Both the position numbers and the translations under genes were made by a program. 64,000 nucleotides of DNA from Rubrivivax sp. (GTDB lineage Bacteria; Pseudomonadota; Gammaproteobacteria; Burkholderiales; Burkholderiaceae_C): positions 1 to 64,000 of the forward strand of contig JAHBZS010000002.1 of the NCBI GenBank assembly GCA_019635285.1, given 5' to 3'. The notes beneath the pieces are model-generated. The model had not been told where the DNA came from, made no database searches, and saw only the letters and a program-made list of their open reading frames with translations. Positions 1,851 through 21,131 of this stretch are shown piece after piece. Each line of letters begins with the position of its first letter. Position 1 is the first letter of the stretch.

Positions 1851-3626
<1,776 letters not shown>

Positions 3627-3681
3627 TCCATCCACCCCGTCGCGGCGCCGGCCGGCGCCGCACCCCACAAGGAGAGCCTGC

Positions 3682-3996
3682 ATGAGACATTCCCGCATCC
3701 TGCTCGTCGCGGCCCTGGCCGTCGCCACGGGAGGCGCCTGGGCCAGCCCCGAGGAGGCGATGAACAAGGCCGGCTGCATGGCCTGCCACGCCAAGGACAA
3801 GAAGCTCGTCGGGCCGTCCTTCAAGGACATCGCCGCCAAGTACAAGGGCCAGGCCGACGTCGTGCCGAAGCTGATGGAGAAGGTCCGCAAGGGCGGCTCC
3901 GGCGTCTTCGGCCCGGTGCCGATGGCGCCGAACCCGCCCGACAAGATCAACGATGCCGACCTGAAGTCGGCGGTCGAGTTCATCCTGAAGAGCTGA
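3682..3996 (+). CDS. nirM: cytochrome c551 (NirM-like)
   Basis: Small periplasmic class I cytochrome c of 104 residues, probably the electron donor to NirS. It has a signal peptide cleaved after AWA, one CMACH heme motif (C32, C35, H36) and a methionine ligand in the GPVPMAPNP loop, matching the c551/c552 family in length and order. A clear AAGGAGAG ribosome-binding site precedes the ATG. The gap to nirS is 55 bp. Confidence 0.93.
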   Translation: MRHSRILLVAALAVATGGAWASPEEAMNKAGCMACHAKDKKLVGPSFKDIAAKYKGQADVVPKLMEKVRKGGSGVFGPVPMAPNPPDKINDADLKSAVEFILKS

Positions 3997-4010
3997 GGCG
4001 GGAGCGCGGC

Positions 4011-4346
4011 ATGCGCGCCGCCTGCACGCTGATCATCGTGTCCGGATGGCTCGCCACCGCGGCGGGCGCGGCAGAGCCGAGCGTGCCGCGGCAGCAGGCG
4101 CTGGTGCGCATGGTGCGGCAGGACTGCGGCTCCTGCCATGGCATGCGCCTGACCGGCGGCCTGGGGCCCGCGCTGACGCCACAGGCGCTGGCCGACAAGC
4201 CTCTGGCGTCGATGACCGCGACCATCCTGCACGGCCGGCCGGGCACGCCGATGCCGCCGTGGCGTGCGCTGCTCGACGATGCCGACGCGCTGTGGATCGC
4301 CACGCAGCTGCAGCACGGCTTCCCCGAAGAGCCTCGGGCCCGATGA
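4011..4346 (+). CDS. nirC: c-type cytochrome NirC
   Basis: A 111-residue periplasmic monoheme cytochrome with a signal peptide and CGSCH (C39, C42, H43). The GGLGPALTP and GTPMPPW segments are the distal loop and methionine region seen in NirC. In other denitrifiers NirC can donate electrons to cd1 or serve in heme d1 maturation. Its stop overlaps the nirF start, so the two are translationally coupled. Confidence 0.9.
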   Translation: MRAACTLIIVSGWLATAAGAAEPSVPRQQALVRMVRQDCGSCHGMRLTGGLGPALTPQALADKPLASMTATILHGRPGTPMPPWRALLDDADALWIATQLQHGFPEEPRAR

Positions 4347-5536: not shown

Positions 5537-5537
5537 C

Positions 5538-6560: not shown

Positions 6561-7053
6561 GGCCCAGGCCGGCGTCGCGGTCGACGCGCGTGATGCGCGG
6601 CTGCTGGAGCGGCTGCACGGCGACCTGCCGCTCACCGACCGCCCCTTCGCCGAGGTGGGCGCCGAGCTCGGCATGGGCGAGGACGAAGTGCTGGAGCGGC
6701 TGCGCCGCCTGTTCACGCTGGGCGTGCTGACACGCTTCGGCCCGCTGGTGCAGATCGAGCGCGCCGGCGGGCGCTTCGTGCTGGCGGCGCTCGAAGTGCC
6801 CGAACCGCGCTTCGACGAGGTGGCGGCGATCGTCAACGCCCTGCCCGAGGTGGCGCACAACTACCGCCGCGAACATGCGCTGAACATGTGGTTCGTGGTC
6901 GCTGCCGAGACGCCGGCGCTGTGCGACGCCGCGCTGGCCCGGGTCGGCGCGCTCACCGGCCTGGCGGTGCATGCTTTTCCGAAGCAGCGTGAGTACTTCG
7001 TCGAGCTGAGGCTGCCGCTGGCGGCCGACAGCGCTGCCAAGGAATCGCTATGA
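6547..7053 (+). CDS. nirG: siroheme decarboxylase subunit NirG
   Basis: A 168-residue AsnC-like heme d1 biosynthesis subunit. It carries the family segments RFGPLVQIERAGG and LPEVAHNYRREHALNMWFVV. The start is taken as GTG 6547, which overlaps the nirDL stop by 14 bp; translation from further upstream would read an unrelated arginine-rich frame inside nirDL, and no in-frame ATG lies nearer. It overlaps nirH by 4 bp. Confidence 0.88.
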   Translation: MSRPEAQAGVAVDARDARLLERLHGDLPLTDRPFAEVGAELGMGEDEVLERLRRLFTLGVLTRFGPLVQIERAGGRFVLAALEVPEPRFDEVAAIVNALPEVAHNYRREHALNMWFVVAAETPALCDAALARVGALTGLAVHAFPKQREYFVELRLPLAADSAAKESL

Positions 7054-7532
7054 AGCTTGCGGAGTTCGACCGCCGCCTGATCGCGGCCACGCAGAGCGGG
7101 CTGCCGCTGGTGCCGCGGCCCTACGAGGCCGTGGGCGCGATGCTCGGCGTCAGCGGCGAGGTGGTGCGCGAGCGCTTCGCGCAGATGCTGCACGACGGCT
7201 TGGTGCGGCGCATCGGCGCGGTGCCCAACCACTACCGCCTGGGCTACACCGCCAACGGCATGACGGTGTGGGACGTCGACGACGCGCGGGTCGACGCGCT
7301 TGGCGAACAGGTCGGCGCGCTGGCCGGCGTCAGCCACTGCTACCGCCGCCCGCGCGAGCTGCCGCGCTGGCCCTACAACCTGTACGCGATGCTGCACGGC
7401 CGCACGCGCGACGCCGTCGAGGCGCAGCGCGTGCAGATCCGTGCGCTGCTCGGCGATGCCTGCCGCGGCGACGAGGTGCTGTATTCGAGCGCGATCCTGA
7501 AGAAGACCGGCTTGCGCATCCGCGAGGACTGA
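7050..7532 (+). CDS. nirH: siroheme decarboxylase subunit NirH
   Basis: A 160-residue AsnC-like protein of the NirDLGH set, with RRIGAVPNHYRLGYTANGM and the RWPYNLYAMLHG signature shared with NirL. It starts in the nirG stop region (ATGA) and lies 5 bp before nirJ, so it is coupled within the heme d1 operon. The NirL-like sequence suggests it forms the active partner of NirG. Confidence 0.9.
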   Translation: MKLAEFDRRLIAATQSGLPLVPRPYEAVGAMLGVSGEVVRERFAQMLHDGLVRRIGAVPNHYRLGYTANGMTVWDVDDARVDALGEQVGALAGVSHCYRRPRELPRWPYNLYAMLHGRTRDAVEAQRVQIRALLGDACRGDEVLYSSAILKKTGLRIRED

Positions 7533-7537
7533 ATTTC

Positions 7538-8758
7538 ATGTTGCGTGTCTCCCACTACCTGCGGCTGCTGGCCGATGCCGAGCGCACGGGCTCGATGGCG
7601 CCGCCCCGCGCCGCTCGCGCGCCCGGCGGTCCGGCTGCCGGCCCGGTGGTCATCTGGAACCTGATCCGCCGCTGCAACCTGACCTGCAAGCACTGCTACG
7701 CGCTGTCGGCCGACCACGACTACGCGGGCGAGCTGGACACGGCCGATGTCTACCGCGTGATGGACGACCTGAAGGCGTACCGGGTGCCGGTGCTGATCCT
7801 GTCCGGCGGCGAGCCGCTGCTGCGCCCGGACCTGTTCGACATCGCCGCGCGGGCGCGCGCCATGGGCTTCTACGTCGGCCTGTCGAGCAACGGCACGCTC
7901 ATCGACGCGGCGATGGCCGAGCGCATTGCCGCGGCGAAGTTCGACTACGTCGGCATCAGCCTGGACGGCATCGGCGCGGTGCATGACCGCTTCCGCCGGC
8001 TGGTCGGCGCCTACACGCGCAGCCTGGCCGGCATCCGGCTGCTCGGTGAGCGCGGCGTCAAGGTCGGGCTGCGCTACACGATGACCATGCTCAACGCCGG
8101 CGAGCTGCCGTCGCTGCTGCAGCTGATGCGCGACGAGGGCGCGCAGAAGTTCTACTTCTCGCACCTCAACTACGCCGGCCGCGGCAACATCCACCGCGCC
8201 AAGGACGCGCAGTTCGCGGCCACGCGCCAGGCGCTGGACCTGCTGTTCGAGACCGCCTGGCGCGACGCGCAGGGCGACGTGCCGCGCGAGTACGTCACCG
8301 GCAACAACGACGCCGACGGCCCGTACCTGCAGCAGTGGGTGCAGCAGCGCTACCCGCAGTGGGCGCCGGCCTTGCGCGAGCACCTGGTCGCCTGGGGCGG
8401 CAACGCCAGCGGCGTCAACGTCGCCAACATCGACAACCTCGGCGACGTGCACCCCGACACGATGTGGTGGCACCACCGCTTGGGCAACGTGCGCGAGCGG
8501 CCGTTCTCGCAGATCTGGGCCGACACCACCGACCCGCTGATGGCCGGGCTGAAGGCCAAGCCCAGGCCGGTGCAGGGGCGCTGCGCGGCCTGTGCCCAGC
8601 GGGACATCTGCGGCGGCAACACGCGCGTGCGTGCGCAGCAGATCACCGGCAACCCGTGGGCCGAGGATCCGGGCTGCTACCTGGACGATGCCGAGATCGG
8701 CGTCGAAACGCACGGTGAGCGCATCGCGGTCACGCCCTTCGCGGCCGTGGGACGCTGA
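7538..8758 (+). CDS. nirJ: radical SAM heme d1 synthase NirJ
   Basis: A 406-residue radical SAM enzyme that removes propionates and installs the oxo groups of heme d1. The radical SAM cluster motif is CNLTCKHC (C46, C50, C53), followed by LILSGGEPLLRPD. The C-terminal SPASM-like region has CAACAQRDICGG and a final DPGCYL, giving ligands for an auxiliary Fe-S cluster as expected for NirJ. The ATG at 7538 directly follows nirH, and the stop is 1 bp from nirN. Confidence 0.95.
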   Translation: MLRVSHYLRLLADAERTGSMAPPRAARAPGGPAAGPVVIWNLIRRCNLTCKHCYALSADHDYAGELDTADVYRVMDDLKAYRVPVLILSGGEPLLRPDLFDIAARARAMGFYVGLSSNGTLIDAAMAERIAAAKFDYVGISLDGIGAVHDRFRRLVGAYTRSLAGIRLLGERGVKVGLRYTMTMLNAGELPSLLQLMRDEGAQKFYFSHLNYAGRGNIHRAKDAQFAATRQALDLLFETAWRDAQGDVPREYVTGNNDADGPYLQQWVQQRYPQWAPALREHLVAWGGNASGVNVANIDNLGDVHPDTMWWHHRLGNVRERPFSQIWADTTDPLMAGLKAKPRPVQGRCAACAQRDICGGNTRVRAQQITGNPWAEDPGCYLDDAEIGVETHGERIAVTPFAAVGR

Positions 8759-8759
8759 C

Positions 8760-10454
8760 ATGCGCTGGCTGGCGACGCTGGGCCGCGTGCTGCTCGCGGC
8801 GGGGCTGCTGGCGATGGGCCTGGACCTGGCGCGTGCCGCCGAGCCCGAGGCGCTGTACCAGCAGCACTGCGCCGCCTGCCACGGCGCAGCGCGCACCGGC
8901 GGCATGGGGCCGGCGCTGCTGCCGGAGAGCCTGGAGCGGCTGCGCCGCCCCGAGGCGATGAAGGTCATCGCCGAAGGCCGCACGGCGACGCAGATGCCGG
9001 GCTTCGGCGCACAGTTGAAGCCCGACGAGGTGGCCGCGCTGGCCGCCTGGATCTACACGCCGGTGACGCCCGCACCGGCCTGGAGCGACGCCGACATCCG
9101 CGCCTCGCGCGTGGTCGTCGCGGACGCGGCCACGCTGCCCGGCAAGCCGCAGTGGCGCGCCGACCCGATGAACCTGTTCGTCGTCGTCGAAGGTGGCGAC
9201 CATCACGTGTCGCTGGTCGACGGCGACCGCTTCGAACGCATCCACCGCTTCGAAAGCCGCTACGCGCTGCACGGCGGGCCGAAGTTCAGCCCCGACGGGC
9301 GCTTCGTCTACTTCGGCTCGCGCGACGGCTGGATCACCCAATACGACCTGTGGAACCTGACGGTAGTGGCCGAGGTGCGCGCCGGGCTGAACATGCGCAA
9401 CGTCGCGGTCAGCAGCGACGGCCAGTGGGTCATGGCCGCCAACTACCTGCCGCGCAACGTGGTGCTGTTCGATGCCGCCTTGAACCTGGTGCGCAGCATC
9501 GACGCCGCCACGGCCGACGGCAAGACGCGCTCGCGCGTGTCGGCGGTGTACGACGCCGCGCCGCGGCGCAGCTTCGTCGTGGCGATGAAGGACATCGCCG
9601 AGCTGTGGGAGATTTCGTACGACCCGAAGGCCGAGCCGATCTACGACGGCATGGTGCACGACTACAAGCTTGGCGAGGGGGTGTCGAAGCCGGGCTTCCT
9701 GGGGGTCCGGCGCACGCTGCTCGACGAGCCGCTGGACGACTTCTTCTTCGACCCGGCCTACCGCTTCGTGCTGGGGGCCACGCGGCCGAAGGCCGCTTCC
9801 CTGGAGGGGCCGAAGGCCGCTTCCCCGGAGCGGCCGAAGGCCGCTTCCCCGGAGGGGCCGAAGGCCGCTTCCCCGGAGGGGCCGAAGGCCGCCGTGTCGG
9901 ACGGGCCCAAGGCGGACGGCGCCGGCAGCGCGCAGGTGGTCGGCCTGGACATCCGGCGCAGGGTGGCGACCTTGCCCATCGCCGGCATGCCGCACCTGGG
10001 GTCTGGCATCAGCTTCGCCTACCGCGGCGCCACGGTGCTGGCCAGCCCGAACCTCAAGGACGGTGCCATCGACGTCATCGACCTGCAGAGCTGGAAGCCG
10101 GTGGCGACCATCGCCACGCCCGGCCCGGGCTTTTTCATGCGCAGCCACGAGGCCACGCCCTACGCCTGGACCGACTCGATGATGAGCCCGACCGCGAAGG
10201 ACACGCTGACGATCATCGACAAGCGCACGCTGCAGCCGGTGGCCAGCGTGCGCGAGCCGGGCAAGACGCTGGCGCACATCGAGTTCACGAAGGACGGCCG
10301 CTACGCGCTGGCCAGCCTGTGGGAGAACGACGGCGCGCTGATCGTCTACGACGCGCAGACCTTCAAGGAGGTCAAGCGCCTGCCGATGAGCAAGCCGGTG
10401 GGCAAGTACAACGTCTGGAACAAGATCACGCGATCGGAGGGGACCTCGCACTGA
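8760..10454 (+). CDS. nirN: dihydro-heme d1 dehydrogenase NirN
   Basis: A 564-residue periplasmic cytochrome with a signal peptide, a CAACH heme c motif followed by GAARTGGMGPALLP, and a NirS-like d1 propeller. NirN oxidises dihydro-heme d1 to the mature cofactor. It is closer to NirN than NirS in its short N-terminus and in the KYNVWNKITRSEGTSH end. An unusual insertion at residues 342-389 consists of tandem 8-residue repeats (RPKAASLE, GPKAASPE) placed between two propeller strands. Its 3' end overlaps the convergent ctaA-like gene by 29 bp. Confidence 0.92.
   Translation: MRWLATLGRVLLAAGLLAMGLDLARAAEPEALYQQHCAACHGAARTGGMGPALLPESLERLRRPEAMKVIAEGRTATQMPGFGAQLKPDEVAALAAWIYTPVTPAPAWSDADIRASRVVVADAATLPGKPQWRADPMNLFVVVEGGDHHVSLVDGDRFERIHRFESRYALHGGPKFSPDGRFVYFGSRDGWITQYDLWNLTVVAEVRAGLNMRNVAVSSDGQWVMAANYLPRNVVLFDAALNLVRSIDAATADGKTRSRVSAVYDAAPRRSFVVAMKDIAELWEISYDPKAEPIYDGMVHDYKLGEGVSKPGFLGVRRTLLDEPLDDFFFDPAYRFVLGATRPKAASLEGPKAASPERPKAASPEGPKAASPEGPKAAVSDGPKADGAGSAQVVGLDIRRRVATLPIAGMPHLGSGISFAYRGATVLASPNLKDGAIDVIDLQSWKPVATIATPGPGFFMRSHEATPYAWTDSMMSPTAKDTLTIIDKRTLQPVASVREPGKTLAHIEFTKDGRYALASLWENDGALIVYDAQTFKEVKRLPMSKPVGKYNVWNKITRSEGTSH
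9783..9902 (+). repeat. 24-bp tandem repeat array inside nirN
   Basis: Five head-to-tail 24-bp units start at 9783, 9807, 9831, 9855 and 9879. The first four are nearly identical (core GGCCGAAGGCCGCTTCC); the fifth diverges in its second half, and a partial sixth follows. The unit length keeps the reading frame, encoding (R/G)PKAASPE. The repeat is proline- and alanine-rich and probably a flexible loop. Confidence 0.95.
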
Positions 10455-11295
10455 GGCCTGGGTCCGTGCGCCCTTCACCCAGGGCGGCCAGCCACGCCAG
10501 CCCCAGCGAAGCGGTGACGGCGTGCAGCAGCACCAGCGCCGGCGGCGCGGCGTCCAGCATGGCGGCGATGCCGAGCAGCATCTGCACCAGCGTCAGCAGC
10601 GCCAGCGCCAGGGCATCGCCGCGGTGCAGGCGATACCAGCCGAACACCCCCAGCGCAAAGGCCGCCAGCAGCGCCGGCGCGGCCAGCGCCAGATGCGCAA
10701 AGGCCGGGACGCTGTCGACGCCGGTGCCCGACAGCGCGCCCAGCCCGGCCTGCACCAGCCACAGCAGCGCGACGGCGCGCGCCCCACGCATGCGGGCCGC
10801 CGTGCTGCCGCGCAGGCCGCGCCAGGCTGTCCAGGCGAGCGCCAGCAGCAGCAGGCCGCCGAGCTGGTTGCCCAGCAACACCCACAGCGAACGGCTGCCC
10901 GGCGTGACGATGCCGAGCGCGGCCAGCGCCAGCGCCATGACGAGCATGGCCAAGGCACGTGCGCCGACGCCCGTGCGGCGCGGACGTCGCGCCAGCGCCA
11001 GCAGCGCCAGCGCGCCCGCGGCCGGCAGCATCGTGGATGCGGCGGCGCGATGCGCGGCGCGTACGCCGGCCAGCACGTCCGAGCGGCCCATCCATGGCGC
11101 CGGCGCGGCGCCGGGCGCGGCCGCCGCATCACGGCAGCCGGGCCAGCTGTTGCAGCCCGGCCGCGGCTGCGCCAGCCGCAGCCAGGCGCTGCTCGTCACG
11201 ACGACGATCATCAGCAGCGCGCAGGCCGAAGCCAGCCGGCGCAGCCAGCGGCTGCGCCCATCGGTGGGCAGGGCAGGGGTGGTCGTCGTCGCCAT
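10426..11295 (-). CDS. CtaA/COX15-like heme A synthase homologue
   Basis: A 289-residue integral membrane protein with about eight predicted helices. It has the layout of heme A synthase: RAAHRAAAS in helix 2, FAHLALAA in helix 6 and LLHAVTAS in helix 8. The fourth family histidine, expected in helix 4, appears replaced in WVLLGNQLGG. CtaA oxidises heme O to heme A. Its place divergent from a heme-copper operon that also encodes heme O synthase suggests heme-cofactor supply for that enzyme. Missing one ligand, it may be altered or lack full activity. It ends inside the 3' end of nirN. Confidence 0.75.
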   Translation of the reverse strand: MATTTTPALPTDGRSRWLRRLASACALLMIVVVTSSAWLRLAQPRPGCNSWPGCRDAAAAPGAAPAPWMGRSDVLAGVRAAHRAAASTMLPAAGALALLALARRPRRTGVGARALAMLVMALALAALGIVTPGSRSLWVLLGNQLGGLLLLALAWTAWRGLRGSTAARMRGARAVALLWLVQAGLGALSGTGVDSVPAFAHLALAAPALLAAFALGVFGWYRLHRGDALALALLTLVQMLLGIAAMLDAAPPALVLLHAVTASLGLAWLAALGEGRTDPGLSARSPPIA

Positions 11296-11343: not shown

Positions 11344-11357
11344 TTGACCTGGTTCAT
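11344..11357. promoter_or_regulatory. candidate DNR/FNR box upstream of the NOR-like operon
   Basis: TTGACCTGGTTCAT keeps the TTGA-N6-TCAA pattern with one mismatch and resembles the palindrome at 1791. It lies 67 bp upstream of the first small gene of the plus-strand operon and 49 bp upstream of the divergent ctaA-like gene, a normal position for class II activation. Confidence 0.55.
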
Positions 11358-11423: not shown

Positions 11424-11585
11424 ATGAGCACCCCTCCGCACGACGACCCGAATGAGCCGGTGCCGTGGATGCAGCAGTTGCTCGACAACCCGTTCCTGCT
11501 GCTGTTCCTGGGGGTGTTCGTGCCGATGGTGGTGTACACCGCCTGGGGCGTGTGGGACATCCTGACGCTGCCCGTCGCCAAGTAG
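11424..11585 (+). CDS. 53-residue single-helix membrane protein of the oxidase-like operon
   Basis: Short protein starting MSTPPHDDPNEPVPW with one hydrophobic helix (FLLLFLGVFVPMVVYTAWGVW). A GAAGGAG ribosome-binding site precedes the ATG, and the CuA subunit follows after 16 bp. By size and position it looks like a small structural subunit of a heme-copper complex, comparable to the small helices of ba3- or cbb3-type enzymes. I do not recognise a named family. Confidence 0.7.
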   Translation: MSTPPHDDPNEPVPWMQQLLDNPFLLLFLGVFVPMVVYTAWGVWDILTLPVAK

Positions 11586-11601
11586 GCACGAGGAGCCAAG
11601 C

Positions 11602-12141
11602 ATGAGCGCCATCCTCCCCCCCGCCGAACGGCTTTGGTACAAGCACCCGATCGACCGCGTCGAAGGCACCTGGATCGTCATCGCCCTGCTGTGGTGTCTG
11701 ATCATGTTCGCGATGATGGTCGGCTGGCATATCTGGGGCCACCAGAACCTGTCGACCGAGACCTACCGCACCACGCCTGACAAGTTCATGCCCAAGGTGC
11801 AGGCCATGGTCGACAAGTACACCGTGCGCACCGAGACCGACGAGAAGATTCCGGTGGTGGCGCCGCTGCCGGACAGCGACGTCTACCTGCTGGCGCGGCT
11901 GTGGAACTTCTACCCGATCCTCGAGCTGGAGAAGGGCAAGACCTACCGGCTGCATCTGTCGGCCATGGACTACAACCACGGCTTCTCGCTGCAGCCGGCC
12001 AACATCAACATCCAGATGGTGCCGGGCTTCGAGCACGTGGTCACCGTCACCCCCAACCAGTCGGGCACCTATTCGGTGGTGTGCAACGAGTACTGCGGCA
12101 TCGGCCATCACAAGATGGTCGGACGCATCTACATCAAGTGA
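11602..12141 (+). CDS. heme-copper enzyme subunit II with CuA site
   Basis: A 179-residue subunit II with one N-terminal helix (about 24-45) and a periplasmic cupredoxin domain. The CuA ligands are all present: H126 in DYNHGFSL and C161, E163, C165, H169 and M172 in CNEYCGIGHHKM. It should therefore receive electrons from a periplasmic cytochrome c or cupredoxin and pass them to the catalytic subunit. The single helix and short length recall B-family enzymes. An AGGAGC precedes the start, and the next gene begins 10 bp downstream. Confidence 0.9.
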   Translation: MSAILPPAERLWYKHPIDRVEGTWIVIALLWCLIMFAMMVGWHIWGHQNLSTETYRTTPDKFMPKVQAMVDKYTVRTETDEKIPVVAPLPDSDVYLLARLWNFYPILELEKGKTYRLHLSAMDYNHGFSLQPANINIQMVPGFEHVVTVTPNQSGTYSVVCNEYCGIGHHKMVGRIYIK

Positions 12142-12151
12142 AAGGGCGGCG

Positions 12152-13852
12152 ATGAGCACCGCGACCACGTATCGCACCTGCCCGCGCTCGGGCCTGCAGT
12201 TCGAGCGCCAGGCCGAGATGCTGATGAAGGCCAACGCCTTCGTCGGCGTCGTCTGGCTGCTGATCGGCGGCCTGCTGGCCGTCGGCGTCGTGATGACGCG
12301 CTGGCCGGCGTTCCGCTGGCTCGAGGCCGAGACCTTCTATCAGGTGCTCACGGCACACGGCATCGACATGCTGATCTTCTGGCTGATCTTCTTCGAGATC
12401 GCCGTGCTGTACTTCTGTGCATCGACGCTGCTGCGTTGCCGCATCGCCACGCCGAAGATCGCCTGGCTGGCTTTCGCGCTGATGGTCATCGGCTCGATCA
12501 CCACCAACGTCGCGGTCTACCGCGGCGCCTCCAGCGTGATGATGACCAGCTACGTGCCGATGATGGCCGAGCCCAGCTTCTACCTGGGGCTGATCCTGTT
12601 CGCCGTCGGCGCGCTGGTCGGCTGCTTCGTGTTCTTCGGCACGCTGGTCGTGGCCAAGAGGGACAAGACCTACCAGGGCTCGGTGCCGCTGGTCACCTTC
12701 GGCGCCATCACCGCGGCGATCATCGCCGTGTTCACCATCGCCTCGGGCGCGATCATCCTGATCCCCACCTGGCTGATGGCGCTGGGCGTGGTCAAGGAAG
12801 TGGACCCGCTGGTCTACCGCACCATCTGGTGGGCCTTCGGCCATAGCTCGCAGCAGGTCAACGTCGCCGCGCACATCTCGGTGTGGTACCTGGTTGCGGC
12901 CATCGCCTTTGGCGCCAAGCCGATGAGCGAGCGCGTCAGCCGCACCGCGTTCCTGCTGTACATCCTGTTCCTGCAGCTGGCCAGCGCGCACCACCTGCTC
13001 GCCGACCCGGGGCTGTCGACCGGCTGGAAGGTGGTCAACACCAGCTACTTCATGTACTTCGCCGTGCTGGCCTCGATGCTGCACGGCCTGACCATCCCCG
13101 GTGCGATGGAAGTGGCGCAGCGCCAGAAGGGCTTCACCAAGGGGCTGTTCGAGTGGCTGCGCAAGGCGCCGTGGGGCAACCCCACCTTCAGCGGCGTGTT
13201 CATCGCACTGATCGGCTTCGGCTTCCTCGGCGGCATCTCCGGCGTGATGATGGGCACCGAGCAACTGAACATGATCATCCACAACACGATCTATGTGCCC
13301 GGCCACTTCCATGCCACCGTGGTCATCGGCACCACGCTGACCTTCATGGCGCTGACCTACTACCTGATCCCGGTGCTGTTCAAGCGCGAGATGATCGCGC
13401 CGGGGCTGGCCAAGTGGCAGCCCTACCTGTTCGGCTTCTCGATGTATGCCTTCGCGCTGGTGATGATGGGCGCCGGCACCCTGGGCGTGTCGCGCCGCCA
13501 CTGGGACATGGCCTTCCAGGGCCACGCGCTGGCCTACGAATGGCCCGGCGCCGCGTACCTGATGATGGGCCTGGTCGGGCTGACCGGCCTCATCGCCATC
13601 ATCGGCGGCGCGATCTACATCTACATCACCGTCGGTTCGCTGCTGTGGGGCCGCAAGCTCGACGACGGCACCGTCAGCTCGACCTTCACGCCGATCCCGC
13701 GCACCGCGCCCAGCGTGGCCGCGCAGAGCTACGGCTCGTTGGGCTTCGCGGCGCCCGGCACCTTCGTGCTGGCGATGGTCTTCCTGCTGGCCTTCGTGCT
13801 GTACTACTTCATCAACTGGAAGTACCTGTCCACGCTGTGGGCCCTGAGCTGA
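12152..13852 (+). CDS. heme-copper subunit I lacking the catalytic Tyr; candidate NO reductase
   Basis: A 566-residue polytopic protein. Metal ligands are visible: H69 in helix II, H231 in helix VI (WWAFGHSSQQ), the H280-H281 pair in helix VII (ASAHHLLADPG), and H385/H387 in helix X (VPGHFHAT). HHLLADPG and IHNTIYVPGHFH resemble B-family oxidases. At H+4 in helix VI oxygen reductases of families A and B have the cross-linked Tyr; here it is Gln (Q235). Loss of that Tyr is the known mark of NO reductases within this superfamily, including the CuA-bearing sNOR group described near SenC genes in ammonia oxidisers. Linkage to nirS and DNR sites supports NO reduction; this is inferred, not shown. 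Confidence 0.85.
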   Translation: MSTATTYRTCPRSGLQFERQAEMLMKANAFVGVVWLLIGGLLAVGVVMTRWPAFRWLEAETFYQVLTAHGIDMLIFWLIFFEIAVLYFCASTLLRCRIATPKIAWLAFALMVIGSITTNVAVYRGASSVMMTSYVPMMAEPSFYLGLILFAVGALVGCFVFFGTLVVAKRDKTYQGSVPLVTFGAITAAIIAVFTIASGAIILIPTWLMALGVVKEVDPLVYRTIWWAFGHSSQQVNVAAHISVWYLVAAIAFGAKPMSERVSRTAFLLYILFLQLASAHHLLADPGLSTGWKVVNTSYFMYFAVLASMLHGLTIPGAMEVAQRQKGFTKGLFEWLRKAPWGNPTFSGVFIALIGFGFLGGISGVMMGTEQLNMIIHNTIYVPGHFHATVVIGTTLTFMALTYYLIPVLFKREMIAPGLAKWQPYLFGFSMYAFALVMMGAGTLGVSRRHWDMAFQGHALAYEWPGAAYLMMGLVGLTGLIAIIGGAIYIYITVGSLLWGRKLDDGTVSSTFTPIPRTAPSVAAQSYGSLGFAAPGTFVLAMVFLLAFVLYYFINWKYLSTLWALS

Positions 13853-13912
13853 GTTGAGCAGAGCACGCATGCCGGCCGCCGCGCGCCGGCAGTGCCCACG
13901 AGGAGAGCGCCG

Positions 13913-14836
13913 ATGAACCGCAGCCCACCGCCCGCCGCCGCCAGCCTGGCGGCCGACTCCGGCCTTGCGCGGCGCGGCGCGCGCTGGCGTACGGGCTTAA
14001 GCGTGTTCAAGATCCGCATCGGCGTGCTCATCATGATCACCGCCCTCGGCGGCATGGCGATCGTGCCCGGCAGCCGCTTGAGCCTGGCGCAGGTGCTGTG
14101 GCTGGCGCTGGCGGTGCTGGTGGCCGCGGCCAGCGCCGGCGCCTTCAACCAGTTCGTCGAGGCCGACAGCGACCGGCTGATGGCGCGCACGCGCGGCCGC
14201 GCCTTCGCCAGCGGCGAACTGCCGCGCAGTGCCGGCTGGCTGGCGGCAATCGTCGCCCTGGTGGTGCTGGCCGTCGCGCTGGCCGCCGTGGCGACCAACG
14301 GCATCGCCGCACTCTTCGTCGCGCTCGGCGCCATCACCTACGGCGTCGTCTACACGCTGTGGCTGAAGCGGCGCACCGCCTGGAACATCGTCATCGGCGG
14401 CCTGTCGGGCAGCTTCGCCGCGCTCGCCGGCGCCGCCGCGGTCGACCCGACGATCCCGCCGCAGGCCTGGGCGCTGGCGCTGGTGCTGTTCCTGTGGACG
14501 CCGCCGCACTTCTGGAGCCTGGCCATCGCCGTCGATGCCGACTACCGCCAAGCCGGCGTGCCCATGCTGCCGGTGGTGCTGGGTGTGGAGCGCGCGGCGC
14601 GCATCGTGCATGCCAGTGCGCTGATCTTGGTGGCGTCGTCCTTCCTGCCGCTGGTGTTCGGCGCCGGCTGGGTGGTCGGTGCCGGTGCGGCGCTGGGCGG
14701 CGCGTATTTTCTGTGGCGCACCAAGGCGCTGGCGCGCGCGCCGTCGCGCAAGGCGGCCATGGCGGCGTTCTTCGCGTCGATGGTGCAGCTGAGCCTGCTG
14801 CTGCTGGCGGTGGTGGTCGATGCGGCGATGCGTTGA
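13913..14836 (+). CDS. ctaB: protoheme IX farnesyltransferase (heme O synthase)
   Basis: A 307-residue UbiA-family membrane prenyltransferase. The Asp-rich motif region EADSDRLMARTRGR and LWTPPHFWSLAI are characteristic of CtaB/CyoE, which farnesylates heme b to heme O. A GAGGAGA site precedes the ATG at 13913. Its place inside the heme-copper operon implies that at least one of the linked enzymes uses heme O or A. The stop overlaps the start of the SCO gene. Confidence 0.93.
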   Translation: MNRSPPPAAASLAADSGLARRGARWRTGLSVFKIRIGVLIMITALGGMAIVPGSRLSLAQVLWLALAVLVAAASAGAFNQFVEADSDRLMARTRGRAFASGELPRSAGWLAAIVALVVLAVALAAVATNGIAALFVALGAITYGVVYTLWLKRRTAWNIVIGGLSGSFAALAGAAAVDPTIPPQAWALALVLFLWTPPHFWSLAIAVDADYRQAGVPMLPVVLGVERAARIVHASALILVASSFLPLVFGAGWVVGAGAALGGAYFLWRTKALARAPSRKAAMAAFFASMVQLSLLLLAVVVDAAMR

Positions 14837-15707
14837 TGGACGCGGCGTCTGGCGTCATCGGTGGGCCGGACTGCTGTCGGCGCTGCTGATCCTGCCCGCC
14901 GCGGCGGCCGGTGCCGAGCGCGAACCCGGCACCGTGCCTGCCCTGGACGAGGCGGAGGCGGTGCGCCTGAGCCAGGCGGCAGTGGGCCGCAGCATTCCCG
15001 ACCTGATGCTGCTCGACCGCCAGGGGCGGCCGGTGCGGCTCGCGGCCTACCGCGGCAAGCCGCTGCTGGTCAGCTTCATCTACACCGGCTGCTTCCAGGT
15101 CTGCCCGACGCAGACGCGTGCGCTGTACGAGGCCGTGCAAGGCCTGGAGCGCATGCTCGGCGCACGCCAGTTCAACGTCGTCAGCATCGGCTTCAACCAA
15201 CCCTTCGACGACCCGCAAGCGATGCGCGCCTTCGCGGCGCAGCACCGCATCGACGCAGCGAACTGGGAATTCCTCAGCCCGCCGCGCGACGCCGTGGCCA
15301 CGCTGACGCAGGCTTTCGGCTTCGCTTTCGTCGCCACGCCGGCCGGCTTCGACCATGTGCTCGGCGTCACCGTGGTCGACGCGCAGGGCCGCATCCATGC
15401 GCAGGTCTACGGCGACAAGCTGCGCGCCGACCAGCTCGGCAAGCCGCTGCGCGATCTGCTGCTGGATGCGCCGCCGCCCGCCGAGTCGCGCTTCAGCGAT
15501 CTGGTCGAACGCGTGCGCATCCTGTGCACCGTCTACGACCCCGACACCGGCGCCTACCGCTACGACTACAAGCTGATCTTCGAAGTGATCGGCGGGCTGC
15601 TCTTCTTCGGCAGCGTGGCCGTCTACTTCCTGCTCGAATGGAGAGGGCGGCGCCGCGCGCGCCGACTGTCATGCACGGCCTCGAAACCCTCCGCCGGCAT
15701 GGCCTGA
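14820..15707 (+). CDS. SCO1/SenC family copper chaperone, membrane anchored at both ends
   Basis: A 295-residue thioredoxin-fold protein with the copper-binding CFQVC motif (C91, C95) and the conserved histidine H179 in GFDHVLGV. SCO proteins deliver copper to the CuA site, matching the CuA subunit upstream. It has an N-terminal hydrophobic segment and also an extra C-terminal helix (VIGGLLFFGSVAVYFLLEW), less usual for the family. The ATG at 14820 overlaps ctaB by 17 bp; no nearer in-frame start is visible. Confidence 0.87.
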   Translation: MRRCVDGRGVWRHRWAGLLSALLILPAAAAGAEREPGTVPALDEAEAVRLSQAAVGRSIPDLMLLDRQGRPVRLAAYRGKPLLVSFIYTGCFQVCPTQTRALYEAVQGLERMLGARQFNVVSIGFNQPFDDPQAMRAFAAQHRIDAANWEFLSPPRDAVATLTQAFGFAFVATPAGFDHVLGVTVVDAQGRIHAQVYGDKLRADQLGKPLRDLLLDAPPPAESRFSDLVERVRILCTVYDPDTGAYRYDYKLIFEVIGGLLFFGSVAVYFLLEWRGRRRARRLSCTASKPSAGMA

Positions 15708-17218
15708 ACGGCTGGCGCCGCGTCGAGCGGGGCTTCGATGCGGCCTTCGGTTCGGCGCTGAATCCGCTGCGCCACCTGGGCGCGATCGGCTTCCTTGCGT
15801 TCTGGCTGCTCGCCGCCAGCGGGGTGCTGCTGTACATCGTGCTCGACACCTCGGTCGAAGGCGCGTATCGATCGATCGCCAGCCTGGAGCAGGCGCCGCT
15901 GGCGCTGGGCCGGCTGCTGCGTGGGCTGCACCGCTACGCCGCCGACGTGCTGGTCATCGCGCTCGGCCTGCACCTGCTGCGCGAATGGCTGCACGGCCAC
16001 GAGCGCGGCTTCAGGCGCTTCTCGTGGCTGACCGGGGTGCCGCTGGTGGCCTTCGTCTTCGCCGCGGCGATCGGCGGCTTCTGGATCAACTGGGACCAGC
16101 TCGGCCAGTTCTCGGCCATCGCCACCGCCGAATGGCTGGACGCGCTGCCGCTGCTGGCGGCGCCGCTGGCGCGCAACTTCCTGGGCAGCGCCACGGTCGG
16201 CGACCGCTTGTTCTCGCTGTTCGTGTTCGTGCACCTCGGCGTGCCGCTGCTGCTGCTGTTCGGCCTGTGGTTCCATGTGCAGCGCATCACGCGCGCCGCG
16301 GTGCTGCCGCCGCGCCCGCTGACTCTGGGGCTGGTCGCGGTGCTGGCGCTGCTGGCGCTGGCCGTGCCGGTGACCAGCCACCCGCCGGCCGCGCTGGGCG
16401 CCGTGCCCGGCGTGCTGCGACTGGACTGGATCGTGCTCTTCGTGCATCCGCTGACCTATGCGACGTCGCCGCAGTTCGTCTGGGCGCTGGTCGTGGGTGG
16501 CGCGCTGACGCTCTTCGGCCTGCCGTTCCTGCCGCAGGCCGCCCGGCGCGCGCCGGTGGCCGTGGTCGACGCCGCCAACTGCAGCGGCTGCCGCCGCTGC
16601 CTGGCCGACTGCCCGTATGCGGCGATCACCATGGTGCCGCACCCGAACCAGCGCATCGGGCGTTCGCTGGCCGTGGTCGATGCCGACCTGTGCGCCGGCT
16701 GCGGCATCTGCGCCGGCGCCTGCCCGTCGTCGACACCCTTCCGCGGCATGCAGCAACTGATCAGCGGCATCGACCTGCCGCAGCGCACGGTCGATGCCCT
16801 GCGCCGGCAGTTGCGCACCACGCTGGCCGCGGCGATCGAGCCGCAGCCGCTGGTGGTCTTCGGCTGCGCGCACGGTGCACGCGCCGCCGCCGGCGCGCAC
16901 CACGTCGAGCTGCTGTGCACCGGCCAGCTGCCGCCGTCCTTCGTCGAGTACGCGCTGCGCGACGGCGCGGCCGGCGTGCTGGTGGCCGCCTGCCGCGAAG
17001 GCGGCTGCGAGTACCGTGTCGGTGAGCGCTGGACGCACGAGCGTCTCGACGGTTCGCGCGAGCCGCACTTGCGCCGCGGCAGCGTGCCGGCCGAGCGGCT
17101 GGAACTGGTCTTCGCCGGCCCCGGCGACGACGCGCTGCTGGCGCAGGCGCTGGCGCGGCTGCGGCAGCGCGTGCAGGCGCTGGCCACCGAACCCCGGACG
17201 GCGATGCACCATGGCTGA
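15671..17218 (+). CDS. cytochrome b / 2[4Fe-4S] ferredoxin / MvhD-like fusion protein
   Basis: A 515-residue three-part protein. Residues 1-290 form a cytochrome b/b6-like membrane domain with two His pairs (H87/H101 and H188/H202) for two b hemes. Residues 300-355 are a double-cluster ferredoxin (C304, C307, C310, C314; C341, C344, C347, C351). Residues 393-500 resemble the MvhD/FlpD delta subunit of hydrogenase-heterodisulfide reductase complexes, with C399, C416, C441 and C446 available for a [2Fe-2S] cluster. It probably moves electrons between the quinone pool and a soluble or partner redox protein. It overlaps the SCO gene by 37 bp and the next gene by 8 bp. Confidence 0.85.
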   Translation: MHGLETLRRHGLNGWRRVERGFDAAFGSALNPLRHLGAIGFLAFWLLAASGVLLYIVLDTSVEGAYRSIASLEQAPLALGRLLRGLHRYAADVLVIALGLHLLREWLHGHERGFRRFSWLTGVPLVAFVFAAAIGGFWINWDQLGQFSAIATAEWLDALPLLAAPLARNFLGSATVGDRLFSLFVFVHLGVPLLLLFGLWFHVQRITRAAVLPPRPLTLGLVAVLALLALAVPVTSHPPAALGAVPGVLRLDWIVLFVHPLTYATSPQFVWALVVGGALTLFGLPFLPQAARRAPVAVVDAANCSGCRRCLADCPYAAITMVPHPNQRIGRSLAVVDADLCAGCGICAGACPSSTPFRGMQQLISGIDLPQRTVDALRRQLRTTLAAAIEPQPLVVFGCAHGARAAAGAHHVELLCTGQLPPSFVEYALRDGAAGVLVAACREGGCEYRVGERWTHERLDGSREPHLRRGSVPAERLELVFAGPGDDALLAQALARLRQRVQALATEPRTAMHHG

Positions 17219-17735
17219 GCGCGATACCTCCCAGCGTCGTCCGCTGGCCTGGGCCGGCCAGGTGCTGCTCTACGGTGCCTTCGCGCTGGCCATCGGCGTG
17301 TTCTCGCAATGGCCACCCTACCGCCACCTGCAGCCCGACCAGGCGCTGGTCAAGCTGAGCTTCGTGCGCGTCGGCAAGCCGGTCGGCGACTGCCGAAAGC
17401 TGAGCGACGAGGAACTGGCCAAGCTGCCGCCGAACATGCGCACGCCCACGGTGTGCCCGCGCGAGCGCTCGCCGCTGACCGTGCAGATGGCCATCGACGG
17501 CCGGCCGGTGCTCGACCGCAGCGTGCCACCCACCGGGCTGCGCCAGGACGGCGCGTCCGCGGTCTACGAGCGTGTGGTCGTGCCGGCCGGCGAGCGGCTG
17601 ATCACCGTCAGCCTGTCCGACGACGTGCGCGCGCGCGCCACGCCGCATCGGCGCGAGGAGCGTGTGACGCTGGTGCCGGGTCAGGTGCTGGTCATCGACT
17701 ACGACGCCGAGAAGGGCGGCATCACCTTCCAATGA
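17211..17735 (+). CDS. membrane-anchored protein of unknown function in the NOR-like operon
   Basis: A 174-residue protein with one N-terminal helix (about residues 14-31, AGQVLLYGAFALAIGVFS) and a periplasmic domain of roughly 140 residues with two cysteines (GDCRKL, TVCPRE). The domain contains a predicted beta-rich stretch ending VTLVPGQVLVIDYDAEKG. It overlaps both neighbours by a few bases, so it is made together with them and is probably an assembly factor or accessory subunit. I recognise no family. Confidence 0.8.
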   Translation: MAERDTSQRRPLAWAGQVLLYGAFALAIGVFSQWPPYRHLQPDQALVKLSFVRVGKPVGDCRKLSDEELAKLPPNMRTPTVCPRERSPLTVQMAIDGRPVLDRSVPPTGLRQDGASAVYERVVVPAGERLITVSLSDDVRARATPHRREERVTLVPGQVLVIDYDAEKGGITFQ

Positions 17736-19168
17736 ACACGCTGACGACTCTGCGGCCCTTGCCGCTCGACCTGCGCGCCGACGCGGCGCCTGCGCGCTTT
17801 ACGCTGCCGCAGGTCAGCGCCGCGCAGCGCCCGCTGGCGCGCGCCTGGCTGGTGCTCGGGCTGGCCGCGTTGATCGGTTCGGGGCTGTTCTCGGTGCTGC
17901 TGGTGCTGGCGCGCACGCCGGGCATCAACGCCTGGCTGCCCGCCGGCGACTTCTTCCGCGTCGCGCTGGTCGTGCACGTCGACCTGTCCGTGCTGGTCTG
18001 GTTCGTGGCCATCGCCGGCCTGCTGTGGAGCCTGAACCTGCGGGCGGCGCCGTCGCGCGCCGCGCGTGCCTGCGGCTGGCTGGCGTTGGTGCTGGCCGCG
18101 GGCGGTGCGCTGAGCATGGCGCTCGCCGCCTTCGTCGACCCCGGCGAAGCGATCATGGCCAACTACGTGCCGATGCTCGACAGCGCCACCTTTCGCGCCG
18201 CGGTCGTCGAGTTCGCCATCGGCGCGCTGCTGCTGGTCGGCCTGAGCCTGCGGCGGCCGGCGCCGGTGGGCGCTGCGCTCGACGGTGCCGGCGCGCTGCG
18301 CTTCGGCCTGCATGCCAGCGTGGTCGCGGGGGCGGTGGCGCTGCTGGCCTTCGCCTGGTCGCTGGCCGTGGTGCCGCGTGCGTTGCCGGCCAAGGGCTAC
18401 TACGAGATCCTCTTCTGGGGCGGTGGCCATGCGCTGCAGTTCACCTGGACGCTGCTGATGCTGGTCGGCTGGCTGGCGCTGGCGCAGGCCTGCGGCGGGC
18501 GCATCCCGCTCAGCCCGCGCATCGTGCTGCTGCTGTTCGCGCTGGCACTGGCCGGGGTGTTCGGCACGCCGCTGACCTACCTGATGCACGAAGTCGGCAC
18601 CGTCGAGCACCGCGACATGCACACCTGGGGCATGCGCTTCGGCGGCGGTCTGGCGATCCTGCCGCTGGCGCTGGCCGTGCTCATCGCCGTGGTGCCGCTG
18701 CGCGGGCTGCAGCCCACGCAACGGCCGCTGCGCGCCGCGCTGCTGGCGTCGATGCTGCTGTTCGTGGCCGGCGGGCTGATCGGGCTGACGATCCAGGGCA
18801 GCAACGTGAAGATCCCGGCGCACTACCACGGCTGCATCGTCGGTGTGACGCTGGCGCTGATGGGCGTGGTCTTCCACCTGCTGCCGCGCCTGGGCTGGCA
18901 GGCGCCCGCGGGCCGGCTGGCGGTGGCGCAGCCGTGGCTGTACGGCGTCGGCCAGCTGCTGCACATCGTCGGCCTGGTCTGGTCGGGCGGCTACGGCGTG
19001 CAGCGCAAGGTGGCGGGCAGCGAGCAGGTGTTGCGCAGCGCCGCAGAAGTGTGGGGCATGGGCCTGATGGGCATGGGCGGGCTGCTGGCCATCGTCGGCG
19101 GGCTGCTCTTCGTCGTCGTCGTGCTGCGCGCGATGCGCGGCGCGGCGGCCGGGGCGGCCGCGCGCTGA
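17732..19168 (+). CDS. divergent heme-copper subunit I with GGGH motif (gNOR-like candidate)
   Basis: A 478-residue polytopic protein. Histidines in the expected helices are H82 (VVHVDLSVLVWF, low-spin heme), H233 (FWGGGHALQF, CuB-side helix VI) and H364/H366 (IPAHYHGCIVG, helix X). The residue at H233+4 is Phe, not Tyr, and the usual His-His pair of helix VII is not seen; only MHEVGTVEHRDMHTWG lies there. Similar WGGGH proteins occur with nir genes in other denitrifiers and have been proposed as alternative NO reductases. It overlaps the preceding gene by 4 bp and lies 7 bp before the second cytochrome b fusion. Confidence 0.75.
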   Translation: MNTLTTLRPLPLDLRADAAPARFTLPQVSAAQRPLARAWLVLGLAALIGSGLFSVLLVLARTPGINAWLPAGDFFRVALVVHVDLSVLVWFVAIAGLLWSLNLRAAPSRAARACGWLALVLAAGGALSMALAAFVDPGEAIMANYVPMLDSATFRAAVVEFAIGALLLVGLSLRRPAPVGAALDGAGALRFGLHASVVAGAVALLAFAWSLAVVPRALPAKGYYEILFWGGGHALQFTWTLLMLVGWLALAQACGGRIPLSPRIVLLLFALALAGVFGTPLTYLMHEVGTVEHRDMHTWGMRFGGGLAILPLALAVLIAVVPLRGLQPTQRPLRAALLASMLLFVAGGLIGLTIQGSNVKIPAHYHGCIVGVTLALMGVVFHLLPRLGWQAPAGRLAVAQPWLYGVGQLLHIVGLVWSGGYGVQRKVAGSEQVLRSAAEVWGMGLMGMGGLLAIVGGLLFVVVVLRAMRGAAAGAAAR

Positions 19169-19175
19169 GCCGACC

Positions 19176-21131
19176 ATGGTGAGCCTGCTGCAACGCGCGC
19201 TGCGCGCCGGCTTCATGCGCGCCGAGGCGCTGTTCAACCGCGCTTTCGGCGACCGCCTGAACCCGCTGTACCACCTGGGCGCGATCAGCTTCTTCCTGTT
19301 CTGGGTGGTCGGCGCCACCGGGCTGGTGCTGTACGCGTTCTTCGACACCAGCGTCAGCGGCGCGTACCGCTCGGTGGAGGCCATCACGCACGGCGTCTTC
19401 GGCCTCGGCGGCGTCATCCGCACGGTGCACCGGCATGCCTCCGACGCGATGCTGCTGACGATGCTGATCCACCTGCTGCGCTACTTCGCCTTCGACCGGC
19501 TGCGCGGCTTCCGCTGGTTCTCGTGGGTCACCGGCGTGCTGCTGCTGTGGCTGGTGTACATCGCCGGCGCCAACGGCTTCATGCTGCCGTGGGACCGGCT
19601 GGCACAGTTCGTCACGCAGGCCAGCTTCGAATGGCTGGACTGGCTGCCCGGCTTCGGCGGCACGCTGATCCGCAACTTCATCCTGCCCGAGCACGTCAGC
19701 GACCGGCTGTTCTCGCTGCTGGTGTTCATCCACATCGGCGTGCCGCTGCTGACGCTGCTGCTGATGTGGGTGCACGTGCAGCGCGTGCCCAAGGCCACGA
19801 CCAACCCGCCGCGGCCGATCATGCTGGCGCTGCTGCTGATGTTGCTGCTGCTGGCGCTGGTCGCGCCCGTCGTCAGCCAAGCGCCAGCCGACCTGCGCAC
19901 CGTGCCTCAGGTGCTGCGGCTGGACTGGTTCATCCTGACGATCTTCCCGCTGCTGTATGTCTGGCCGCATGCGCTGACCTGGGGCCTGGTGATCGGCGCG
20001 ACCGCGCTGCTGTTCCTGATGCCGTGGCTGCCGCCGCGGCGCGGCGGCCGCGCGCCGATCCAGCTGACCATGCACCCCGGCCCGGTGCGCCTGGCCGCAC
20101 GTCCCGGCGAGACGCTGCTGGAAGCCGGGCTGCGCGCCGGTGTCGCGCTGCCTTATGACTGCCGCGCCGGCGGCTGCGGCGTGTGCGTCTGCACCGTGCT
20201 GCACGGCCGCGTCGACCAAGGTGCGTACCAGCCCGCGGCGCTGACCGAGGCGATGCGCGCGCGCGGCCAGGCGCTGATGTGCTGCGCGGTCGCGCTCGAC
20301 GACGTCGATCTCGAGGTCGAGGGCGTCGGTGCGTTGTCGCTCGGTGCCGCAGCGGCGCCGCTGCGCCGCTGGCACGCGCGCGTGCAGGCCATGCAGCGCC
20401 TCTCGCCGGACCTGATGCGCGTGCATCTGGCGCTGCCGGCGGGGGAGCACATCGCCTTCGTTGCCGGCCAGTACATCAACATCCTGCTCGACGACGGCGC
20501 CAAGCGCGCGTTCTCCTTTGCCAACGCGCCGCCCGACCCGCAGGCCGCGCCGTCCACCGCCGGCGACGTGATCGAACTGCATGTGCGGCTGATCCCCGGC
20601 GGGCGCTTCACGACGCAGGTGTTCGAGACGATGAAGGTGGGCGATGCCATCGAATTCGAAGGTCCGCTAGGCCGCTTCACCTTGCAGGACAGCCAGCGGC
20701 CGATCCTCTTCGTCGCCGGTGCCACCGGCTTCGCACCGGTGAAGAGCATCCTCGAGGACGCGTTCCGCCGCGGCGTGCAGCGCCCGATGACGCTGTACTG
20801 GGGCGTGCGCACCGCCGCCGACCTGTACCTGCTCGACGAGGTCGAGCGCTGGCAGCGCGAGCACGCCAACTTCCGCTTCGTGCCGGTGCTGTCGGCGGCC
20901 GACGCCGACACCGCCTGGGCCGGCCGCCGCGGCCTGGTGCACGAAGCGATGCTCGCCGACCACCCGGACCTGCGCGGCCACGAGGTCTACGCCTGCGGCT
21001 CGGTGCGCATGGTCGAGGCGGCGGTGCCGGACTTCATCGCGCACGGGCTGGAGGAGCAGTTCTGCTTCTCCGATGCGTTCGTGCCGACGCCCAAACCGCC
21101 GGCGCCGGGCGGTCCTCAGCGGCCCGCATGA
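19176..21131 (+). CDS. cytochrome b / [2Fe-2S] ferredoxin / FAD-NAD(P)H reductase fusion
   Basis: A 651-residue three-part protein. Residues 1-285 are a cytochrome b domain clearly homologous to that of the 15671 gene, with His pairs H85/H99 and H186/H200. Residues 295-385 are a plant-type ferredoxin (C329, C334, C337, C369). Residues 395-630 are a ferredoxin-NADP reductase-type module with the FAD motif RAFSFAN and the NAD(P)-binding VAGATGFAPVKSIL and YACGSVRM. It could pass electrons from NAD(P)H through FAD and Fe-S to b hemes and on to the quinone pool or directly to the NOR-like subunit. It ends the operon. Confidence 0.87.
   Translation: MVSLLQRALRAGFMRAEALFNRAFGDRLNPLYHLGAISFFLFWVVGATGLVLYAFFDTSVSGAYRSVEAITHGVFGLGGVIRTVHRHASDAMLLTMLIHLLRYFAFDRLRGFRWFSWVTGVLLLWLVYIAGANGFMLPWDRLAQFVTQASFEWLDWLPGFGGTLIRNFILPEHVSDRLFSLLVFIHIGVPLLTLLLMWVHVQRVPKATTNPPRPIMLALLLMLLLLALVAPVVSQAPADLRTVPQVLRLDWFILTIFPLLYVWPHALTWGLVIGATALLFLMPWLPPRRGGRAPIQLTMHPGPVRLAARPGETLLEAGLRAGVALPYDCRAGGCGVCVCTVLHGRVDQGAYQPAALTEAMRARGQALMCCAVALDDVDLEVEGVGALSLGAAAAPLRRWHARVQAMQRLSPDLMRVHLALPAGEHIAFVAGQYINILLDDGAKRAFSFANAPPDPQAAPSTAGDVIELHVRLIPGGRFTTQVFETMKVGDAIEFEGPLGRFTLQDSQRPILFVAGATGFAPVKSILEDAFRRGVQRPMTLYWGVRTAADLYLLDEVERWQREHANFRFVPVLSAADADTAWAGRRGLVHEAMLADHPDLRGHEVYACGSVRMVEAAVPDFIAHGLEEQFCFSDAFVPTPKPPAPGGPQRPA

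Follow-up and report, generated by a model that had tools for sequence, protein, structure and literature searches.

The DNA considered here (the window) comprises the first 64,000 nucleotides of contig JAHBZS010000002.1 of a Rubrivivax sp. assembly (GCA_019635285.1), and it carries, directly downstream of a nir cluster, an operon of nine tightly spaced or overlapping genes on the + strand (11409 or 11424 to 21131). We conclude that this is a known nitric oxide (NO) reductase family, eNOR, in a conserved and extended operon. More specifically, we suggest, with a probability of roughly 0.78, that the operon encodes an eNOR-type NO reductase replacing norCB, and that HCO2, the second of its two homologues of heme-copper oxidase subunit I, would be an assembly protein or an electron carrier rather than a second NO reductase. 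The original prediction for this DNA had likewise put an NO-reductase-type operon in the place of norCB, a proposal that gains support from a glutamine (Gln235) and CuA in the operon and from the complementarity of cNOR and eNOR among genomes with NirS.

The assignment is carried by the first subunit I, HCO1 (12152..13852, +; PF00115, 216.5 bits), which, judged by its residues, is of the eNOR type. The family is already in print; papers that cite them credit Hemp and Gennis (2008) and Murali et al. (2024) with its description. Within the local motif GHSSQQ of HCO1, Gln235 occupies the position of the oxidase tyrosine, and the six canonical histidines are kept: Q234, Q235, H231, H280, H281 and H385 are present in 74 of 74 aligned rows, and H69 and H387 in 73. 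Gene order was counted over 80 named loci, the best 80 of 404 found with HCO2 as query and biased to close relatives, 64 of which were usable and 16 too short. In all 64, a CuA-type subunit II (11602..12141, +; PF00116, 25.2 bits, cut-off 22) stands immediately upstream of HCO1, and its residues H126, C161, C165, H169 and M172, which we take to be the CuA ligands, are found in 70 of 70 aligned rows. Gln235, the six histidines and the CuA ligands match the criterion for eNOR given in PMC8756737, which asks for a glutamine at the oxidase-tyrosine position and, directly before the gene, a cupredoxin subunit II; they thus point to HCO1 being eNOR-type. The same paper reports eNOR from Archaea, Chloroflexi and Proteobacteria, with a Thermus sequence among the candidates. 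In five papers (PMC8756737, PMC10734462, PMC8114936, PMC12569097 and PMC9270275) eNOR is treated as a known type of NO reductase, and three of the five refer to a proton channel or pump that has been proposed. As HCO1 carries the eNOR residue, it is ruled out as a new class of NO reductase.

As had been predicted, the cross-link tyrosine of oxygen reductases is missing from HCO1 and HCO2 alike. In our motif table a tyrosine stands in the A and B oxidases, HLWVEGVWE in NorB and GHSSQQ in HCO1, which has neither the NorB-type glutamate motif nor a cross-link tyrosine in helix VI. Nor is there one at the C-family position of helix VII (HHLLADP vs HHLLYTA in CcoN), and a cbb3-like supply of the tyrosine from that helix is unsupported by the table. 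A subunit I tree, a norB search of the rest of the genome and a comparison of gene order had been proposed as checks on the original prediction, and all three were run. In the tree (47 rows, in which the cNOR group and the three oxidase groups A, B and C were labelled from motifs and plasmid annotation), HCO1 joins homologues from Thermus, Thermomicrobium and Defluviimonas (100/99) and stands apart from the oxygen-reductase (A, B, C) and cNOR rows; long branches are present. The AlphaFold2 model of HCO1, built from 24 of the 74 rows, was poor, with a predicted local distance difference test (pLDDT) score of 60.1, and was not used. Two other sequences deserve mention. The HCO1 homologue at 10001-11662 of L033, a Thermus thermophilus plasmid, has lysine in place of the second helix-X histidine (GHFK vs GHFH). 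An odd subunit I homologue in L148 (308-2077, genome G047), on a long branch beside eNOR and HCO2 in the tree, has tyrosine at one CuB histidine position (YH) and again at a heme-ligand position (GYFH).

Judged by gene presence, the operon substitutes for norCB in many denitrifiers with nirS, though there are exceptions. The absence of cNor and qNor genes, which had been noted for the window, extends beyond it at the thresholds used: a NorB search of the genome to which the window belongs (94.5% complete) returned nothing at E 1e-20. This genome encodes five COX1-type proteins: HCO1, an aa3-like oxidase, a cbb3-like oxidase and two HCO2 proteins, the second of which lies at the end of a contig. 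Two genome samples were compared, 61 relatives and 274 genomes drawn across the class, with the window's genome counted once when they were pooled. Clear NirS was defined as a d1 match above 450 bits (25 of the 61 relatives, and 32 of the 54 d1-positive class genomes, the other 22 being left out at first). We called cNOR at 39% or more identity to a NorB query, itself a match to the solved cNOR 3o0r (E 1.4e-234), and counted weaker NorB matches apart. HCO1 occurs in 17 relatives, 16 of which also have clear NirS; cNOR was found in none of these 16, three of which have a more distant NorB match, against seven of the nine relatives with NirS and without eNOR. The class sample contains 24 genomes with eNOR, 15 of them with clear NirS as well; three of these 15 have cNOR, compared with 15 of the 17 clear-NirS genomes that lack eNOR. 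Pooled, the counts are 3 of 30 with eNOR against 22 of 26 without (Fisher p 1.4e-8, taking no account of phylogeny). Over all 54 d1-positive class genomes they are 4/21 against 29/33, and 7/21 against 29/33 (p 6e-5, likewise uncorrected) when weak, mostly qNOR-length NorB matches are included. In L162 and L163, from genomes that also carry eNOR, NorB-like proteins with HYWVEGVWE, 31-32% identical to the cNOR query, are not clearly cNOR or qNOR. With cNOR (NorCB) and qNOR the operon would share the proposed reaction and the place in the pathway; it differs from them in GHSSQQ for the HLWVEGVWE-type helix VI, and Pfam finds no cytochrome c domain in its nine genes, with CuA present instead.

The predicted gene content (a CuA subunit II, two subunit I proteins, heme O synthase, SCO and two cytochrome b fusions) agrees with the Pfam and NCBIfam calls made for the window proteins. 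The operon opens with a small membrane protein (11424..11585, +, with an in-frame ATG also at 11409) that has no Pfam or NCBIfam match, occurs at every one of the 64 usable loci and has homologues standing before CuA on plasmids of Defluviimonas and Thermomicrobium. CuA subunit II and HCO1 are followed by a heme O synthase (CtaB/CyoE; 13892..14836, +, start possibly at 13913; TIGR01473, 254 bits, cut-off 210.3) and an SCO/SenC copper chaperone (14820..15707, +; PF02630) with C91, C95 and H179 in 75 of 75 aligned rows. Next come a fusion of cytochrome b, 2x[4Fe-4S] and FlpD/MvhD parts (15671..17218, +; PF00033, Fer4 models, PF02662), in which H87, H101, H188, H202 and twelve cysteines are found in 78 of 78 rows, and p174, a 174-residue protein (17211..17735, +) of no known family in the Pfam and NCBIfam searches, with C61 and C82 in 82 of 82 rows. 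The last two genes encode HCO2, a heme-copper-oxidase-like protein without CuB (17732..19168, +; PF00115, 53.6 bits), and a fusion of cytochrome b, [2Fe-2S], FAD and NAD(P)H reductase parts (cytochrome b-FNR; 19176..21131, +; PF00033, PF00111, PF00970, PF00175), which keeps H85, H99, H186, H200, C329, C334, C337 and C369 in 77 of 77 rows.

All nine genes occur in this order in 59 of the 64 usable loci; four lack a ctaB match, and in L108 the best cytochrome b-FNR match landed on the operon's other cytochrome b gene. The closest named copies, among the best 80 of 404, come from metagenome-assembled genomes (MAGs) labelled Rubrivivax, Aquincola and other Burkholderiales. Burkholderiales, and some MAGs labelled Lysobacterales or Gammaproteobacteria, keep the layout that includes HCO2 and both cytochrome b fusions; cultured carriers of the operon include Simplicispira and Comamonas granuli. 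More distant genomes repeat a core of small membrane protein, CuA, HCO1, (ctaB), SCO, cytochrome b-FlpD and p174, with HCO2 present or not. The Defluviimonas plasmid has the same core, after which comes a gene of the hemerythrin family in the absence of HCO2, the Thermomicrobium plasmid has the small protein, CuA, HCO1 and heme O synthase, and the Thermus plasmid has CuA and HCO1 followed by other genes. Because the core appears without HCO2 in distant loci and in these three plasmid homologues, where cytochrome b-FNR does not adjoin it either, these two genes seem to have been added to an eNOR core. The operon as a whole shares with eNOR the glutamine and the upstream cupredoxin subunit, and differs in adding ctaB, SCO, the cytochrome b-ferredoxin-FlpD protein, p174, HCO2 and cytochrome b-FNR.

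One part of the original prediction, that the operon has two catalytic-type subunits, fails for HCO2, which is without the helix-VII His-His pair of CuB. Among its 82 close copies, H82, H233, Q236, E292, H364 and H366 are present in all and Y283 in 81, so that the histidine ligands of the low-spin and high-spin hemes (H82, H364, H366) are kept throughout. The His-His pair is absent from all 82, with none in that region; its place is taken by Ala (79), Ile (2) or Thr (1), followed by Tyr (81) or His (1). One CuB histidine (H233) is kept and two of the three are gone, and with these ligands missing HCO2 is ruled out as an ordinary second catalytic subunit. In a separate alignment of 31 rows that includes distant relatives, whose helix-VII region is hard to align, H233, Q236, H364 and H366 are found in 31 of 31 rows, H82 in 29, Tyr283 in 23 and Glu292 in 17. 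One distant row, L215, has a His-His elsewhere in the helix-VII region and a tyrosine at the low-spin heme place. The AlphaFold2 model of HCO2 (41 of the 82 rows; pLDDT 89.1) has the subunit I fold, and its best Foldseek match is a ba3 oxidase (E 4.8e-08, TMq 0.68). A profile comparison relates HCO2 to HCO1 with a probability of 99.7 at 25% identity; this low identity and the stem length in the tree (2.45 changes per column) rule out recent duplication, and their sister relation has a support of 94/84 in a tree that carries a long-branch warning. HCO2 searches of PDB sequences and of plasmids returned nothing, the HCO2-type proteins tested, four of them from other genomes, had no NCBIfam match, and we found no literature on CuB-less homologues.

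What HCO2 might do is suggested by where its relatives stand. At 18 loci (L206-L222 and L225; neighbours Pfam-tested in nine) it lies outside an intact eNOR operon; genes for cox, heme or cytochrome c assembly are close by in eight of these loci and nir genes in five, one locus falling in both groups. SCO, CtaA, CtaB, SURF1 and CoxIII are close to HCO2 in L210, CoxIII and CtaB in L212, CoxI and SCO in L209, CoxII and CoxI in L225, CtaA in L216, a CtaB-like gene (by tblastn) in L213 and L218, and ResB, cytochrome c assembly and thioredoxin-like genes in L214. The nir genes are found in L207, L216, L219, L221 and L222, and in L217 HCO2 comes after a cytochrome b-FlpD-p174 stretch. L216 and L225 also have genes that we presume to be NosR-like, in which Pfam shows Fer4_5 alone. 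HCO2-type proteins beside assembly genes in other class genomes share the CuB-less residue pattern; unlike HCO2 of the window, most have no adjoining eNOR subunit I, and no cytochrome b-FNR was detected with them. Since relatives of HCO2 often have nir genes or genes of oxidase assembly as neighbours, a part in assembly or in electron transfer is more probable than catalysis, and most likely, as read from these neighbourhoods, HCO2 would serve one of these with cytochrome b-FNR and would not be a second NO reductase. We speculate further, at somewhat below an even chance, that proteobacterial eNOR is a larger complex with HCO2 as a heme-only partner, acting either as an assembly protein or as a membrane wire that takes electrons from NAD(P)H or ferredoxin, by way of cytochrome b, to NO reduction.

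The gene content, residues, conservation, family relations and co-occurrence seen here would fit the following mechanism. The operon would be expressed together with nirS under a DNR-like regulator of the CRP/FNR family. CuA subunit II and HCO1 would form the NO reductase, with their own heme O synthase and SCO chaperone; periplasmic electrons would pass through CuA and the low-spin heme to the heme-CuB site of HCO1, where NO would be reduced to nitrous oxide (N2O) with Gln235 in the place of the tyrosine. HCO2, as a heme-binding subunit I homologue, would help to assemble this enzyme or carry electrons with cytochrome b-FNR, while the cytochrome b-ferredoxin-FlpD protein and p174, both members of the wider eNOR core, probably have redox or accessory functions.

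Among the alternatives, the most plausible, though we still hold it doubtful, is that HCO2 and cytochrome b-FNR form a module by which NAD(P)H or ferredoxin would supply electrons to eNOR or the quinone pool. In the operon the two genes stand next to each other, their heme and Fe-S ligands are conserved, and they recur as a pair at 7465-10627 of L030 (the end of contig C6, which cuts this copy; HCO2 about 60% identical), beside genes that look to us, by recall from their sequences, like subunits of 2-oxoacid:ferredoxin oxidoreductase. No homologue of the FNR part was detected in 38 more distant loci, some of them short, which argues that HCO2 does not need cytochrome b-FNR. It is unlikely that HCO2 is itself a second protein that processes or senses NO, at a new active site in which heme, His233, Gln236 and perhaps Tyr283, Glu292 or His293 would stand in for CuB. 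H233, Q236 and E292 in all 82 close copies, Y283 in 81 and H293 in 79 would suit such a site, as would H233 and Q236 in all 31 rows of the distant-relative set and the presence of HCO2 in 19 of the 24 class-sample genomes with eNOR. However, two of the three CuB histidines are gone, Tyr283 and Glu292 fall to 23 and 17 of the 31 rows, and a further 11 of the 30 class genomes with HCO2 (out of 274) have no eNOR, six of them no d1 protein either (E 1e-100). That the operon is a B-type-like oxygen reductase and no NO reductase is very improbable: ba3/B-type subunits are the nearest solved structures and the B oxidases neighbour eNOR in the tree, but their tyrosine is glutamine in 74 of 74 HCO1 rows with no C-family helix-VII tyrosine to replace it, an aa3-like and a cbb3-like oxidase are already at hand in the genome, and eNOR and cNOR are complementary.

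Several points weigh against the reading that we prefer, of an eNOR-type NO reductase in the place of norCB with HCO2 as assembly protein or electron carrier. The 47-row tree has no row for the eNOR of Rhodothermus marinus, reportedly the biochemically tested member of the family. Any NorB match at all is found in 7 of the 30 pooled genomes with NirS and eNOR; four genomes (G074, G265, G272, G307) combine eNOR with cNOR of at least 39% identity, and seven (G001, G029, G058, G154, G162, G180, G216) have a weaker NorB match, so that replacement of cNOR by eNOR is not absolute. The p-values given above are too small, and thus optimistic, because the genomes are related. The role proposed for HCO2 is read from neighbourhoods; in L206 and L208 it adjoins a gene for a sigma-70-type factor, with no eNOR match in either genome, and in L211, L215 and L220 it has no telling neighbour (a penicillin amidase in L220). 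The pair in L030, beside genes like those of 2-oxoacid:ferredoxin oxidoreductase, fits electron transfer better than assembly. Moreover, the nearby H293, kept in 79 of the 82 close copies, makes another metal site in HCO2 possible.

The surroundings of the operon are those of a cytochrome cd1 denitrifier. As had been predicted, a nir cluster (1878..10454, +) lies directly upstream, with nirS (1878 or 1911-3626, +) and nirF-like (4340-5536, +), fused nirDL-like (5538-6560, +), nirJ-like (7430-8758, +) and nirN-like (8760-10454, +) genes supported by Pfam and NCBIfam. A small cytochrome c (3682-3996, +), a further open reading frame (7050-7532, +) and a nirE-like gene, which is also upstream on the other strand, were recognised by eye, and a domain search places a CRP/FNR-type gene (80-778) upstream as well. 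The nirN-like protein has a repeated GPKAASPEG-type insert (window 9758-10009), and its d1 match is split into two pieces. Between the nir cluster and the operon lies a divergent CtaA-like gene (10426..11295, -; partial PF02628, 32.7 bits, cut-off 29.9), a divergent homologue of which lies at most 700 bp away in 23 of 63 loci. A nirS match was seen in 14 of the 80 loci, within flanks of up to 10 kb.

The operon is probably co-regulated with nirS. The DNR-like box of the original prediction is present, as an FNR/DNR-type box, TTGACCTGGTTCAT, upstream of the operon (11344..11357, +), and a similar one, TTGAACTGGTTCAA, precedes nirS (1791-1804). In 41 of 67 loci the pattern TTGA-N6-TCA[AT] is conserved upstream of the operon, 35-180 bp ahead of its first gene; the corresponding counts are a mean of 0.35 for shuffles (maximum 2), 0 for a scrambled motif and 2 for a stretch inside the operon. 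With the stricter TTGAY-N4-RTCAA, 33 of 67 loci agree at 9 or all 10 of the 10 positions, as 1.9% of shuffles do; the operon box of the window agrees at 8, a level equalled or exceeded by about 21% of shuffles. Because sites with two mismatches are common across the window (52 vs 21.5 expected), the weight of the box lies in its position and conservation. We infer that its regulator is DNR.

The original prediction had called the operon apparently undescribed. This does not apply to HCO1, which has the published eNOR signature, and it may hold for the layout: no description of HCO2, cytochrome b-FNR or the operon layout was found by title and abstract, the text of Murali et al. 2024 lying outside this search, so that the novelty of the layout is provisional. 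Provisionally, then, what is new is the conserved CuB-less partner HCO2 with its two cytochrome b fusions.

These findings bear on how denitrifiers are surveyed. Surveys of NO reductases by norB only would call these nirS denitrifiers NO-leaky despite their conserved eNOR operon. A search of the genome for NosZ of the twin-arginine translocation (TAT) type gave none over the cut-off, its sole match being the CuA subunit II, and Sec-type NosZ was not searched; as no TAT-type NosZ was found, such bacteria may release N2O. HCO2, in turn, poses a testable question, namely what job a heme-copper oxidase fold does without its copper site. If HCO2 is an assembly protein, it would be the first protein of this fold to serve the assembly of an oxidase or NO reductase, and, whether as assembly partner or as electron wire, it would represent a new job for the fold.

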